A stretch of 64,000 nucleotides of DNA from Sulfobacillus thermotolerans (lineage in GTDB: Bacteria > Bacillota > Sulfobacillia > Sulfobacillales > Sulfobacillaceae), in assembly GCA_002951815.1 (NCBI GenBank), contig CP019454.1, forward strand, positions 1,612,001 to 1,676,000, in the 5' to 3' direction. Made by a program: the position numbers and the translations under genes. Shown piece by piece: positions 22,911-61,208 of the stretch. The stretch's first letter is position 1. Every line of letters begins with the position of its first letter. The notes under the pieces were generated by a model, which was not told where the DNA came from, made no database searches, and was given only the letters and a program-made list of their open reading frames with translations.

Positions 22911-22920
22911 TGTCACTATG

Positions 22921-23070
22921 CCCGTGAGCGCCAGGACCTTTTGCCATAAGGCAGAAGGTTGACGAGGTGAGGGATCTCGAATTTCTCGGCGGGTGACCTC
23001 CGGCTCCCCGGCAGTCGTCAAATCACGAACAAAGGCTATCCGCAAGGATAGCACAAACACGTGTGGCCGG
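22921..23070 (+). ncRNA. glmS ribozyme (GlcN6P-responsive self-cleaving riboswitch)
   Basis: The 190-bp leader between glmM and glmS matches the glmS ribozyme. AGCGCCAG occurs at 22927-22934, so cleavage is predicted between A22927 and G22928. A stem of TTTTGCC and GGCAGAA (P1 region) follows, then the conserved core GACGAGGTG, a TCGAATTTCTCGGCGGGTG stretch and CCTCCGG. Near 23034-23051 a perfect hairpin GCTATCC/GGATAGC with a GCAA loop corresponds to P4. Glucosamine-6-phosphate acts as a cofactor for cleavage in known examples, lowering glmS expression. Confidence 0.95.
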
Positions 23071-23102
23071 GACCGGCTCCTGAATATGGAGGCGATCGAT
23101 CA

Positions 23103-55640: not shown

Positions 55641-56741
55641 TTACGATTCAGGGGTATTTAAAATGTCTAGCCGGGCGAGACGGCGCAAGCTGTCCATTTT
55701 CGTTCGATCCTCGACTTTTGCGCGAGAAATGGCTTGTTCGAGTACGGCCAGCGATGTCTCATAGTCCTGGCGATCTACGGGGAAGGGAATACCGTCTTTC
55801 CCGCCATGCGCAAAACTGTAGCGCACGGGATCGTGATAGGTGAGGGGCGATCCGAAAACGACCTCGGAGACCATGGCTAGTGCGCGCATGGTACTGGCGC
55901 CGACGCCAGGGATACGGAGAAGATCTTCGTAATTGTGCGGTGCGCGGTCATAAATTTGGTACAAAATTTTGTTGAGGTATGACGCAGACGGAATGTCGTG
56001 ATGGGCAGGCATGACCAATTCGGCCTGTCCTTGCTCTCGGCGCAACTCGCGCAGTGCCAATAACACCTCTTCGGGATGCTGCGTCAATTCGACGCAATGC
56101 CCTTGTATCTCCTGGTTATGGTGGTCAGTCAAGTCCAGCACGTATGGTAGGCTTCGCCCCACAATGCCATGATGCGGCTCCACTGTGTAGGCCGTGACGG
56201 TTTGACTGAGCCAATGGTAACGGCGGGCCGTTTGATTGTCGGCGTTCATGCCTTGTTGGATGACAGTCCATTGGCCCGCCTTATCAAATAGCATGACATG
56301 ATGATAGAGTTGATATCCATCTTGCACAAGCGCATTATCGACTTTCGCCACCATGCGGCTTACATCGGTTAGTGGATGAATCGTAGTGGGGAGGCCTAAC
56401 GCATCCCCAATCTGCTCAATTTCCTGGGGCGTGTTGCGCGACGCTTTACCTTTTCCCCCAACAACAAACAGTCCCAGGTCATGTTGTTTGGCGGCGAGCC
56501 CTTCCTTGAGCGCTCCAAGGCCGACGGTCGTGAGGCCCGATGAGTGCCAGTCAAACCCGATAACGCTGCCAAAGGCTTGAAACCAAACGGGATCTGCCAT
56601 GCGCCGCAAGGCTTCGGCCGTACCAAATTCGTAGGCGACAGCTTCGATGATCGCGGCACTAAGCCGGGTCATTTTCTGGAATAACCAAGGGGGACAATGC
56701 CCACCGTGTAGCGGTGACATCGCTGTTCCCATTTTTGGCAT
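55641..56741 (-). CDS. DUF763 protein
   Basis: The 366 residues match the DUF763 family: PLHGGHCPPWLFQKM near the start, FGSVIGFDWHSSGLTTV, GGKGKASRNTP, and a helix-hairpin-helix-like segment LLRIPGVGASTMRALAMV toward the end, followed by FAHGGKDGIPFPVDR. The HhH segment suggests DNA or RNA binding, but the function is not established. ATG 56741 follows AAGGAGG at 11 nt. It diverges from the glycosylase gene. Confidence 0.88.
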   Translation of the reverse strand: MPKMGTAMSPLHGGHCPPWLFQKMTRLSAAIIEAVAYEFGTAEALRRMADPVWFQAFGSVIGFDWHSSGLTTVGLGALKEGLAAKQHDLGLFVVGGKGKASRNTPQEIEQIGDALGLPTTIHPLTDVSRMVAKVDNALVQDGYQLYHHVMLFDKAGQWTVIQQGMNADNQTARRYHWLSQTVTAYTVEPHHGIVGRSLPYVLDLTDHHNQEIQGHCVELTQHPEEVLLALRELRREQGQAELVMPAHHDIPSASYLNKILYQIYDRAPHNYEDLLRIPGVGASTMRALAMVSEVVFGSPLTYHDPVRYSFAHGGKDGIPFPVDRQDYETSLAVLEQAISRAKVEDRTKMDSLRRLARLDILNTPES

Positions 56742-56890: not shown

Positions 56891-57520
56891 ATGCCCTTTC
56901 CTTGGCGAGGACCAGTGGATGTCTCATTCTTTTTACAGCCCACAAACGTGTTAGCGAAGGCGTTATTAGGAACGGTTTTGGTGCATGACACACCCGAAGG
57001 CCTAACGGCTGGACGCATTGTCGAAGTCGAAATGTATCAAGGGCCGTGGGATAAAGCGGCGCACAGCTATGGCGGACGGATGACCGAGCGCACTCGCATT
57101 ATGTACGAAGACGCGGGGCATGCGTATGTCTACTTCATTTATGGCATGCACTATTGCTTAAACGTCGTGTCGGGGCCGCATGGCGCGCCTGAGGCGATTT
57201 TAATTCGGGCGTTGGAGCCATTGGAGGGATTAGAGCTGATGGCGCAGCGCCGCAGATTGGCTTGGCCGCGGAAAGGTCTTTGTGAGCTCACCAACGGACC
57301 TGGTAAATTGGCCCAAGCTATGGGAATTACCAAAAGACAATACGGATGGCATCTGGCTCATTCGGCTTTGCGCCTGTATCACGATCAGGACCCGTTGCCA
57401 GACAATCAGCTGGCAACGGGTCCGCGCATCAATGTGAATTATGCCGAGGAGGCTGCCCTCTATCCGTGGCGCTTTTGGGTGGCTGGGCATGCTTGCCTAT
57501 CGGTTAAAAACCGCGCCTAG
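56891..57520 (+). CDS. 3-methyladenine DNA glycosylase (AAG/MPG family)
   Basis: This base-excision repair enzyme removes alkylated purines. The roughly 209-residue protein shows VLAKALLGTVLVHD, the catalytic region IVEVEMYQGPWDKAAHSYGG, YVYFIYGMHYCLNVV and NGPGKLAQAMGI, all family signatures. Two ATGs (56888 and 56891) follow GGAGG; the second has better spacing. It ends convergently with serA, overlapping by 4 bp. Confidence 0.93.
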   Translation: MPFPWRGPVDVSFFLQPTNVLAKALLGTVLVHDTPEGLTAGRIVEVEMYQGPWDKAAHSYGGRMTERTRIMYEDAGHAYVYFIYGMHYCLNVVSGPHGAPEAILIRALEPLEGLELMAQRRRLAWPRKGLCELTNGPGKLAQAMGITKRQYGWHLAHSALRLYHDQDPLPDNQLATGPRINVNYAEEAALYPWRFWVAGHACLSVKNRA

Positions 57521-59076
57521 AAGACAAATACGTGGTGGATATCGGTAATTTGATTTAAATCCCGGACCAGGTCATCGGGAACCGTCTGGTCAAGCGATAA
57601 AATCATCAGGGCTTGGTGATTATTCTCCTGCCGGCCCAAATGTAAATTACCGATATTGATGCCGTACTGACCGACTAGGGTGCCTACTTTGCCGACTACG
57701 CCGGGTGCATCGTCATGCACTGTCATCAGGGCAATGTCTGGCCATGGCAGATCAACAGCCACCCCATTAATGCGCCGCAGACGGGGTACGTGATTTTCTA
57801 AAGACACTTCGGTCGTGGTTTCAGGATGGCCCTCGAGCCGGAGTGCCAACGTCGGCAATGCGTTTGCGTCGCGTTCTTCGACGAGCAGTTTGAGACCTTG
57901 TTCTTCAGCTTTGACGAGTGCGTTGACAGCGTTCACACGGTCGGCTAGCTGTTCGTTTAAAATTGCGGCCAAAACCGTTTGCTTGAGCCATGGCAACGCA
58001 TTCTTGGGAATAGGGCCTTTTAAGCTCAAAACAATAGGCGCATGCAAGGTGCGATGCATTTGGGCAAAAATGCGGCCGACAATGCGAGCTCCCTCATCAA
58101 GCATGCCGAACTCATCGGGGGTTAAGGGGGGCACAGGCACGTTGACGATATTGGGGGGGGTTAACCCTTGCAAGGCGGCGATAACCCCTTGCGCTGTCAT
58201 CACGGCCACGCCAGTCATGGCTTCATGCGTGCTGCCTCCAAGGTGGGGCGTTAACACCGCCCGGGGATGACGGAATAGAGGAAAATCGGCGGGCGGCGGC
58301 TCTTGGCTGAACACATCCAACCCGACGCCAAGCAGGTGACCGGTGTCCATTAAGGTCGCTAAGGCTTCTTCATCAATCATTCCACCGCGCGCCACATTGA
58401 TGACGATAGCGCCAGCGGGAAGAGTGGACAACAAGTCAAGGCCGATTTGAGGTCCTGACTTCGGGGTATGCAAGGTCAGGATATCGGACACCGGCAGAAG
58501 CTCTTCGAGGGTTTCCATACGGGTAACATTGTGTGCTTGAAAAATCTCATCGGCGACAAAGGGGTCATAGGCATACACCTTCATGCGGAAACCATTGGCA
58601 ATGCGAGCGGCTTCACGGCCAACCTTTCCAAATCCGATAATGCCTAAACGCCTTTCATGGAGCTCGCCCCCTAGAAATTTCTTTCGGCTCCACTCCCCGC
58701 TGCGAACATGAGCATCACCGAGGTGGACGTTGCGCAAGATGGCAAGCATGTGTGCGAAGGCCTGTTCGGCGGCCGCTACCGCGTTAGCGCCTGGGGCATT
58801 GATGACGGCAATGCCCAGTTCGGTGCAAGTCTTTAGATCCACGTTGTCGACACCCGAGCCTGCCCGTGCGACGACTTTGAGCCGAGGATGACCGATTAGG
58901 GTCTCACGGGGGAGGCGATGTGCACTGCGCACAATCACGGCATCATAGTTGTCGATGATTTCGGGAAGCTGTTCTTTGGGGAGCAGGTCATAGGCATCGA
59001 CATCGGCTACTTCGCGCAGGAGATCAATGCCTTCTTGCCCAAGGGTTTCAGTAATTAAGATGCGGGGCCTCGTCAT
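57517..59076 (-). CDS. serA: D-3-phosphoglycerate dehydrogenase
   Basis: SerA oxidises 3-phosphoglycerate in the first step of serine synthesis. From ATG 59076 it has 519 residues: a substrate/NAD domain (about 1-310; GIIGFGKVGREAARIANGF, and catalytic histidine in LTPHLGGSTHEA), an intervening domain, and a C-terminal ACT domain (about 445-519) typical of allosteric serine control. It shares one base with the preceding aminotransferase gene; GGAGG is 10 nt upstream. Both lie behind a T-box leader. Confidence 0.95.
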   Translation of the reverse strand: MTRPRILITETLGQEGIDLLREVADVDAYDLLPKEQLPEIIDNYDAVIVRSAHRLPRETLIGHPRLKVVARAGSGVDNVDLKTCTELGIAVINAPGANAVAAAEQAFAHMLAILRNVHLGDAHVRSGEWSRKKFLGGELHERRLGIIGFGKVGREAARIANGFRMKVYAYDPFVADEIFQAHNVTRMETLEELLPVSDILTLHTPKSGPQIGLDLLSTLPAGAIVINVARGGMIDEEALATLMDTGHLLGVGLDVFSQEPPPADFPLFRHPRAVLTPHLGGSTHEAMTGVAVMTAQGVIAALQGLTPPNIVNVPVPPLTPDEFGMLDEGARIVGRIFAQMHRTLHAPIVLSLKGPIPKNALPWLKQTVLAAILNEQLADRVNAVNALVKAEEQGLKLLVEERDANALPTLALRLEGHPETTTEVSLENHVPRLRRINGVAVDLPWPDIALMTVHDDAPGVVGKVGTLVGQYGINIGNLHLGRQENNHQALMILSLDQTVPDDLVRDLNQITDIHHVFVF

Positions 59077-60227
59077 TATCGGTACGCCTCCTTTTGAATG
59101 GCCAGATTGTCGTGCCATACTTTCCAAGCTGCCTGCACCCCGTCAAGACCGCGGGGGAGAAGATGGGCTAGGGTGCTGAGTCCCTCAAACAATTGATTGG
59201 GCATCAGCGCGCCTACGTGGCCGATACGCACCATTTCATGATGCCATGGACCCATGCCACCGGCGATTTGTAGACCTAATACGGCTGTCTGATTCCGGAA
59301 TTCTTGAGGCTCAAAGCCTTCTGCAACGTGCAGGGCTGTCACGGTGGGAGACGCGACTGCGGGGTCTACGGCGGGCTCCATGCCAGCGGCGGCACCAAAA
59401 GCATGGGTCATCTGCGCCATAAGGCGGTGCCGCGCGAGACGGGCCTCGACGCCTTCTTGTTCGAGCAGATTAAGGGCCTCTTCGAGGCCGTTCCACAATG
59501 AGACGGCGGGAGTGTAGGGGAATTGCCCGGCCAAATATGGTTGCAGGTCAAAGAATAGCCGACCCGGCCGGTCTTTTAACACGTGCTCACGAGCCCGAGC
59601 TGAGAGCGCTAAGATGCCGAGACCGGGAGGGCACATAAAGCCTTTTTGAGATGCGGCGACAATGACGTCCACATCGTCTTGCTCAATCGTCAGAGGCACC
59701 GATGGCACACCACTGATGCTATCGACAATTAATAACGGGCGATTGGGGTGGTGTTTGAGCAGTTCGGCTAATTGTGTCACGGGATTCAACACGCCCGTCG
59801 AGGTTTCATTATGCGTCACGAGGATCCCTTTGATGTGGTGTTCTTCGTCAAGCGTTTCGATAACATGCTGGGGGTCAAACGCTTGCCCATAGGGCACGCG
59901 GATATGACGCACCTCGACGCCCATTTTCTCGGCGATATCGACAAAGCGTTCACCAAAGGCGCCTGTGCTCACGCCAATGACACGATCGCCGGGATTAAAA
60001 AAGTTTTGGACAGCGGTTTCCAACGCACCCGTGCCGGTGGTTGGGATTACCGCGACGCCTCCATCTGCTCCGACCTTAAAGAGGTCTTGAAGCTGCGCGG
60101 TGACATGATTCTTGACCCGTGTAAAGACCGCGCCACGGTGATCTGACATAGCTTGTTGCATGGCGAGGTTAACACTAGGGGGGACAGGGGTGGGGCCTGG
60201 TAAAAGAATTTGTGGTGGATACATCAT
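59076..60227 (-). CDS. Class V aminotransferase (phosphoserine or serine-glyoxylate type)
   Basis: This PLP enzyme has 383 residues from ATG 60227 (GGAGG 8 nt upstream). It shows LLPGPTPVPPSVN, THNETSTGVLNPV, DSISGVPSVPL and the lysine in AASQKGFMCPPGLG, which binds PLP. It belongs to the alanine/serine-glyoxylate branch, not the classical SerC. Next to serA and behind a T-box, it very likely supplies the phosphoserine aminotransferase step, as in several thermophiles and archaea. It begins the serine operon. Confidence 0.85.
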   Translation of the reverse strand: MMYPPQILLPGPTPVPPSVNLAMQQAMSDHRGAVFTRVKNHVTAQLQDLFKVGADGGVAVIPTTGTGALETAVQNFFNPGDRVIGVSTGAFGERFVDIAEKMGVEVRHIRVPYGQAFDPQHVIETLDEEHHIKGILVTHNETSTGVLNPVTQLAELLKHHPNRPLLIVDSISGVPSVPLTIEQDDVDVIVAASQKGFMCPPGLGILALSARAREHVLKDRPGRLFFDLQPYLAGQFPYTPAVSLWNGLEEALNLLEQEGVEARLARHRLMAQMTHAFGAAAGMEPAVDPAVASPTVTALHVAEGFEPQEFRNQTAVLGLQIAGGMGPWHHEMVRIGHVGALMPNQLFEGLSTLAHLLPRGLDGVQAAWKVWHDNLAIQKEAYR

Positions 60228-60272
60228 TGGGGATTCCTCCTTAAGATTATGGGGTTTATTTTTATCACGCAA

Positions 60273-60491
60273 AACAAAAAACGCCCCTAAATTATTAGGG
60301 ACGGTAGTCACCGCGGTGCCACCCTATTTGGCAGATCGATAGATTCTGCCCGCTCTTTGGCTTTTAACGCAGCTCCGCGATCAACTCATCGCTGATGTCC
60401 TCCTGGGTGGAATCGGGTTCGGGCAGCACATCGGGTTCCATCCTACCGACTTTCTAGAGAACCGCCCGGCTCTTCCCATTCATTGGCCGTT
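60273..60491 (-). promoter_or_regulatory. T-box leader of the serine biosynthesis operon
   Basis: On the minus strand the conserved AGGGTGGCACCGCG motif lies at 60325-60312. A terminator hairpin follows (CGTCCCTAA with TTAGGGGCG, 60303-60282) and a U-run (60281-60275). These are the antiterminator and terminator features of a T-box riboswitch. The upstream 130 bases are G/C-rich and structured, as for Stem I. A UCC serine codon followed by A at 60411-60409 is a candidate specifier, which I cannot prove by eye. Uncharged tRNA-Ser would then turn on the operon. Confidence 0.9.
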
Positions 60492-60497
60492 TGTGAA

Positions 60498-60527
60498 ATT
60501 ATAATCACAGGAGCGTGAAGCTGTAAA
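60498..60527 (-). promoter_or_regulatory. Promoter of the serine operon, overlapped by a dyad
   Basis: On the minus strand, -35 TTTACA (60527-60522) and -10 TATAAT (60503-60498) are 18 bp apart. TTGTGA...TCACAG (60491-60510) forms an imperfect dyad with 8 bp between halves, centred on the -10. Confidence 0.75.
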
Positions 60528-60677
60528 GAGTTTTGGCAAAATAAATTTGAGCGAGACAATACCAACCCAAACTTCCAGGAATTGTCCGCGGCGTTTTCTT
60601 GTCATTTTGTCAGCTAACGCATAGGATGAAGGAGATAAGGTTGGAGGTTGGACTACGAAACGAAAGAGGACAAGCAC

Positions 60678-61208
60678 GTGAGAAAATGGTCATTCCTAGT
60701 TGCAGGGATTGCCTTGGCAGGTACGATGTCAGGGTGCGGACTCTTTGCAGGTCCCCCTCAGCAAAAAGTTCCTGCCATGGTGATACCGTCACCAAGTCAT
60801 TCCCAAAGTGTGTGGATGCACGCCAATGCGGCACAACACACCGTGGATTTGACGGTGATTGCCGGGTATGCCAGTCAGGGCTTTAATCTTAATGGTACGG
60901 CCAACGGCGCGATGTGGGTCACAGTGCCAGAAGGCTGGCATGTGGTGATTGAATTTACGAATGATAGTGGGCTTGCCAATTCATTGGCGGTTGTGCGGGG
61001 ACCGCAAAGTACACAAGCGCTGTTTCCCGGTGCAGGAACACCGCCGTTGGCGAAAGGAATTTCCCAGGGCCAACGGCGAACATTGAGTTTTGTGCCGACC
61101 ATACCTGGCTCATTTCGTTTGGCCAGCTTAGTGCCAGGCCATGAATCATCAGGGATGTGGGCTCATTTCGTTGTGACACCATCGGGCCAACCCTCGTTGC
61201 GGCTGTGA
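60678..61208 (+). CDS. Sulfocyanin-like lipoprotein with an incomplete copper site
   Basis: From GTG 60678 (AGAGGA at 60665-60670) the protein has 176 residues. The signal ends in TMSGC, a lipobox, so it should be a lipoprotein at the outer face. The rest resembles sulfocyanin (SoxE-like blue copper) proteins: FNLNGTANGAMWVTVPEGW and a C-terminal PGHESSGMW. In sulfocyanins the ligands are His, Cys, His, Met. Here the first His position reads Asn (GLANSLAVV) and the Cys position Ser (RLASLVPGH), while the second His and Met remain. It probably does not hold a normal blue copper. Its stop overlaps the following molybdoenzyme gene by 4 bp. Confidence 0.75.
   Translation: MRKWSFLVAGIALAGTMSGCGLFAGPPQQKVPAMVIPSPSHSQSVWMHANAAQHTVDLTVIAGYASQGFNLNGTANGAMWVTVPEGWHVVIEFTNDSGLANSLAVVRGPQSTQALFPGAGTPPLAKGISQGQRRTLSFVPTIPGSFRLASLVPGHESSGMWAHFVVTPSGQPSLRL

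Follow-up and report, generated by a model that had tools for sequence, protein, structure and literature searches.

The minus strand of the window (the whole 64-kb stretch of DNA that was analyzed) carries, between positions 60527 and 60269, a promoter-like pair, a T-box leader and a terminator with a U-run, followed by the genes for a class V aminotransferase and SerA (Table 1). The aminotransferase gene starts with an ATG at 60227, behind a GGAGG, and its TAA stop codon (59078-59076) has one base in common with the ATG of serA (59076-59074), confirming the one-base overlap described in an earlier, sequence-only reading of this DNA. The interval marked in that reading, 60273-60527, is bounded by the -35 box and the U-run.

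Table 1. Coordinates of the predicted leader and operon features in the window.
Feature	Position	Strand	Basis
Predicted sigma-70 type promoter, TTTACA-N18-TATAAT	60498..60527	-	11/12 matches; consensus match only
T-box leader RNA (Stem I, II, III, antiterminator)	60294..60492	-	RF00230 and covariation, 30 leaders
Stem I: base helix UGGG 60478-60475 / CCCA 60407-60404; distal arm between them, carrying an AGAAA bulge and the GGAUGGAA loop	60404..60478	-	cmscan; covariation helices 2-5
Specifier UCC (Ser), then A60408	60409..60411	-	Position in cmscan alignment; UCC in 30/30 leaders
Stem III	60330..60351	-	Helix 8: 99.4% of cells paired; two-sided changes in 5/6 pairs
T-box sequence AGGGUGGCACCGCGG	60311..60325	-	Bulge UGGC 60321-60318 opposite tRNA 3' GCCA
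Antiterminator (AGGG/CCCU and GCGGU/ACCGU)	60297..60325	-	Helices 9-10, 100% paired, nearly invariant
Intrinsic terminator and U-run	60272..60303	-	CGUCCCU in common with antiterminator
SerC3-like class V aminotransferase (PLP, PF00266; 383 aa), a proposed phosphoserine transaminase	59076..60227	-	Profile matches
serA (519 aa), 3-phosphoglycerate dehydrogenase; intervening domain and ACT domain present	57517..59076	-	TIGR01327, PGDH_inter, ACT

The surroundings of the operon were also inspected. Divergent from the leader, at 60648-61208 on the plus strand, lies the gene of a small, weakly sulfocyanin-like protein (54.4 bits against a cut-off of 168.4), followed by a molybdopterin oxidoreductase gene. 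On the other side, beyond an oppositely oriented 3-methyladenine glycosylase gene, a 366-aa protein with no NCBIfam match at E 0.001 is encoded at 55641-56741 on the minus strand. Farther away, a glmS ribozyme was identified at 22916-23073 on the plus strand (RF00234, 73.2 bits, over the gathering score).

The T-box leader, its specifier and the matching tRNA

The covariance-model check proposed in the sequence-only reading returned a match to the full length of RF00230 (cmscan, model positions 1-219 of 219) at 60492-60294 on the minus strand, with an E-value of 1.4e-17 and a score of 79.3 bits, below the Rfam gathering score of 93 bits. Because its score is under 93, the leader was missed by a gathering-level Rfam scan of the whole window, and it was picked up in E-value mode. 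The host genome has 13 matches to RF00230, three of which reach 93 bits and ten of which fall below. Three promoter-like sites were found in a 501-base region for which 0.7 were expected. The terminator, at 60303-60282, has a 9-pair stem and a 4-nt loop and is followed by TTTTTTGTTT; its fold of -13.9 kcal/mol was equaled in stability by none of 200 shuffles. Terminator and antiterminator are mutually exclusive, as in a T-box, with CGUCCCU common to both. Compared with shuffles, the whole leader showed a mild gain in folding stability (z -2.14), and the Stem I piece folded in isolation showed none. Based on the RF00230 match and the terminator fold, the T-box sequence, terminator and U-run described earlier as lying upstream of the class V aminotransferase gene were borne out.

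To examine the leader comparatively, we aligned it with those of the 29 best aminotransferase loci outside the host genome (n=30). The UCC specifier was invariant in all 30 leaders, the next base being A in 24 and G in six, and the bulge was UGGC in 29 and UGGU in one. The canonical T-box structure was paired in 95.2% of cells of the alignment, and sliding the partner by one to three columns lowered this to 33-45%. Changes on both sides were seen for 25 of 46 pairs, and the observed covariation score was reached by 0 of 500 shuffles, the 30 leaders being related, so that these counts are not independent events. The antiterminator helices 9-10, nearly invariant among the 30 leaders, gave no covariation evidence. 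RNAalifold proposed a pairing of the 3' strand of Stem I with the T-box sequence, which we rejected as an artefact, since the pairs involved show almost no variation and are in competition with the covarying base helix of Stem I.

ARAGORN identified tRNA-Ser genes with the anticodons GGA, CGA, GCT and TGA in the host genome. The tRNA-Ser(GGA) matches the UCC specifier, and its 3' end is GCCA, such that the discriminator G faces the C of the UGGC bulge. A non-serine specifier in Stem I was looked for, and the position reads UCC. Together, the invariant specifier, the covariation and the tRNA strongly support the predicted control of the leader by tRNA-Ser, as the sequence-only reading had supposed. 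The leader anatomy, the specifier and the matching tRNA, like the operon and the absence of SerC considered below, can be read from the sequence itself.

Other T-boxes of the host genome were read by eye. The leaders of the synthetase genes pheS, ileS, valS, leuS, metG, thrS and serS all have, at the specifier position, a codon for the amino acid that the synthetase handles (7/7). Two of these, serS and leuS, have a longer lower helix and are misread in the Rfam register alone, and both were re-read with the helix extended. Among the other leaders, we read UGG for trpE, CCC for proB, UAC for that of a DAHP synthase gene and CUC for that of ilvC; the proC leader, which gave no confident reading, was left out. 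The serS leader, located upstream of mtnA-serS (G000:C1:44330-44525, minus strand), represents a second serine T-box with UCC-A and UGGC, its UCC requiring extension of the lower helix to CGAGAAG/CUUCUCG where the model's own register reads otherwise. The T-box predicts that the methionine salvage gene mtnA sits within an operon regulated by serine tRNA.

Conservation of the operon among relatives

Among 61 related genomes, the host included, 54 had an aminotransferase match at E 1e-40 or better. At the 29 best loci outside the host genome, serA adjoins the aminotransferase gene on the same strand in every case (29/29), and a T-box motif lies upstream of the aminotransferase gene in all 29. 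TIGR01364, a SerC model, matched in none of the 61 relatives at E 1e-15, a threshold that misses some proteins of the TIGR01365 and TIGR01366 types (the control, Caulobacter, gave no match). In 20 further loci from other relatives, serA was adjoining in nine, five of which have the T-box motif; these five loci of more distant class members all have a UCC specifier by eye (5/5). The remaining 11 had neither serA nor a T-box motif in the fetched stretch. Loci L101 and L102 are near contig ends, which limits the view of their context.

A scan of named genomes gave at least 591 confirmed loci, and the counts that follow refer to the best 80, which come from Clostridia, Chloroflexi, Omnitrophota, Nitrospira and other taxa. 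In 37 of these 80, the fetched stretch included serA, which lay no more than 400 bases away in 36 cases. None of the 37 named genomes that have serA there matched TIGR01364, versus 3 of 12 that lack it in the stretch; this comparison leaves out L136 and 30 others of the best 80, and many of the genomes are incomplete MAGs. In a tree built from 130 aminotransferases, linkage to serA required 13 changes, compared with a shuffled mean of 41.9 (0 of 500 shuffles as low), a kind of clustering that near-copies inflate. The window aminotransferase belongs to a starred group of 40 tree rows, 38 of which are serA-linked.

Among the named genomes, some loci have T-box leaders of other kinds. Two Hydrogenibacillus loci (L139 and L132) have an AGC specifier by eye, L132 being without a cmscan match. 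In a member of the Bacillota (L120, 3092-3390), about 100 bases separate a full UCC T-box from a second T-box- or antiterminator-like motif downstream, for which no separate Stem I is evident. In a MAG from the Clostridia (L119, 3203-3439), the T-box of a homologous aminotransferase-serA operon has, by eye, the glycine specifier GGC together with a UGGC bulge, a slight hint of serine-glycine exchange in this relative.

The aminotransferase and the serine pathway

SerA of the window scored over the equivalog cut-off for PGDH (TIGR01327, 463.8 versus 454 bits). The aminotransferase reached 26-40 bits with phosphoserine transaminase models and did not attain the cut-off of any of the three SerC models (TIGR01364, 29.7 versus 443.6 bits; TIGR01365, 26.3 versus 448.2; TIGR01366, 36 versus 401.65). 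Its best NCBIfam models were BhcA, at 260.8 bits, and PhnW-AepZ, at 163.6 bits; neither score comes near the respective cut-off, the BhcA equivalog (NF045640; L-aspartate-glyoxylate aminotransferase) demanding 650 bits. Among proteins of solved structure, its best relative is a serine-glyoxylate aminotransferase, and serine-pyruvate/alanine-glyoxylate aminotransferases are also among the best. In a plasmid search all matches were below 60% identity, and the best was annotated as BhcA.

A classical serC elsewhere in the host genome was sought with the same three models and none was found, the weak matches being to the serA-linked aminotransferase alone. No canonical SerB in the host genome scored over cut-off (best 31.1 versus 144.15 bits); four PspA-like histidine phosphatases (best 115.3 versus 350 bits), one of them at G000:C1:2009310-2009861, were the only candidates seen for the SerB step. 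Our survey of host aminotransferases covered PF00266 (class V), class I enzymes lying outside this family. The host genome has no other close homologue of the window aminotransferase, and the other strong PF00266 proteins were SufS, NifS-like and SufS-like proteins and a kynureninase. A comparison of serA-linked and unlinked aminotransferases gave only partial residue differences, such as YTPA in 51 of 75 linked versus 26 of 55 unlinked proteins, and we therefore claim no substrate signature. The window presents a PF00266 protein beside serA in a genome without SerC, as described for SerC3. Because of this gene context, the absence of SerC and the published parallels, our best inference is that the aminotransferase probably makes phosphoserine from outside the SerC family.

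T-boxes read out a tRNA according to its charging, and this established behavior, together with the anatomy of the leader, is the basis of the mechanism that we propose. Transcription would start just downstream of 60498, and Stem I would offer its UCC to tRNA-Ser with the anticodon GGA. When this tRNA is uncharged, its 3' GCCA would pair with the UGGC of the antiterminator bulge, the terminator would be blocked and the aminotransferase-serA operon would be transcribed; if it is charged, the terminator would form and transcription would halt. SerA would oxidize 3-phosphoglycerate to phosphohydroxypyruvate, which the class V aminotransferase would most likely convert to phosphoserine. We infer that tRNA-Ser regulates the operon in the cell, and consider it likely that the leader is a serine-specific T-box attenuator driving an operon whose aminotransferase most likely forms phosphoserine. 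The sequence-only reading was right in its observations and is very likely right in its inferences also; it made no mention of the published reports of such aminotransferases beside serA and of UCC T-boxes on serA or serC.

An unlikely alternative retains the serine T-box and makes the aminotransferase a serine-, alanine- or aspartate-glyoxylate or a serine-hydroxypyruvate enzyme, with serine arising either without phosphorylated intermediates, via glycerate and hydroxypyruvate, or out of glycine and glyoxylate. The nearest relatives in family and structure, glyoxylate and serine-pyruvate aminotransferases, agree with this, as do the absence of both SerC and canonical SerB from the host genome by profile search and the glycine specifier of L119. 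However, SerA is a full PGDH, with PGDH_inter and ACT domains and a score over cut-off, so its product should be phosphohydroxypyruvate, and SerC3 and Sll1559 are published parallels for a phosphoserine enzyme. A further speculation, to which we give a slim chance, concerns a serine pathway without SerC or known SerB, in which the aminotransferase would use hydroxypyruvate or be bifunctional for phosphohydroxypyruvate and glyoxylate, and the T-boxes of the operon would have shifted between serine and glycine sensing (as in L119), following the product that matters.

The one-base overlap with serA, the linkage to serA at all 29 near relatives and the clustering of that linkage on the tree (13 changes versus 41.9) make it very improbable that another, promiscuous aminotransferase carries out the phosphoserine step and that the serA-linked gene has only an accessory role in the serine regulon, even though class I aminotransferases lie outside the present survey and aminotransferases are described as promiscuous in PMC9997740. 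That the leader is decayed, or serves a different tRNA, is scarcely credible: the RF00230 score is under the gathering threshold, but the leaders have UCC in 30/30, UGGC in 29/30 and strong covariation, and all seven synthetase leaders of the host, read by eye, have a codon of the matching amino acid at the same place.

The serine codon in 30 of 30 aligned leaders provides a clear regulatory argument for annotating a widespread, unproven aminotransferase as a phosphoserine enzyme. With this annotation, the serine prototrophy predicted for the lineage would have one gap fewer, and the homologues form a compact set for complementation. Specialists in T-boxes or amino acid pathways will find no surprise here.

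Comparison with known serine T-boxes and aminotransferases

A literature search on Sulfobacillus, T-box, serine and riboswitch gave no report of this operon among the matches listed. Methanocaldococcus MJ0959 is reportedly another case regarding phosphoserine; a literature search for the two together found no paper. The main text of PMC2494555 does not mention serA.

According to PMC8002221, serA of Paenibacillus polymyxa WLY78 is controlled by a serine T-box whose sensing of tRNA-Ser was tested by mutation. Like the window leader, that T-box sits on a serine biosynthesis gene and has a terminator and antiterminator; it differs in having AGC and UGGU where the window has UCC and UGGC, and in that P. 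polymyxa serC is apart from serA and without a T-box, whereas the window has an aminotransferase-serA operon. The same paper cites predictions of UCC T-boxes on serA in C. acetobutylicum and C. tetani and on serC in C. thermocellum and D. hafniense. These share with the window both UCC and serine genes, and the genes named serC there may be of the SerC family or of the window type.

The BhcA, serine-glyoxylate and alanine-glyoxylate aminotransferases belong by sequence to the same class V subfamily as the window aminotransferase, which differs from the BhcA group in being far below the BhcA equivalog cut-off and in its operon with serA. A further parallel is SerC3, a PF00266 protein in an operon with serA that is proposed, in PMC9026213, to be a phosphoserine aminotransferase and is said to resemble Synechocystis P74281. 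The window aminotransferase can be likened to SerC3 by family and context, both being non-SerC PF00266 proteins beside serA in genomes without SerC; the term T-box has no occurrence in the main text of that paper. In Synechocystis, phosphoserine transaminase activity outside the SerC family is reported for sll1559 in PMC9997740. Both UCC serine T-boxes on serA or serC and non-SerC aminotransferases in serA operons are, then, already in print, and the window is another instance.
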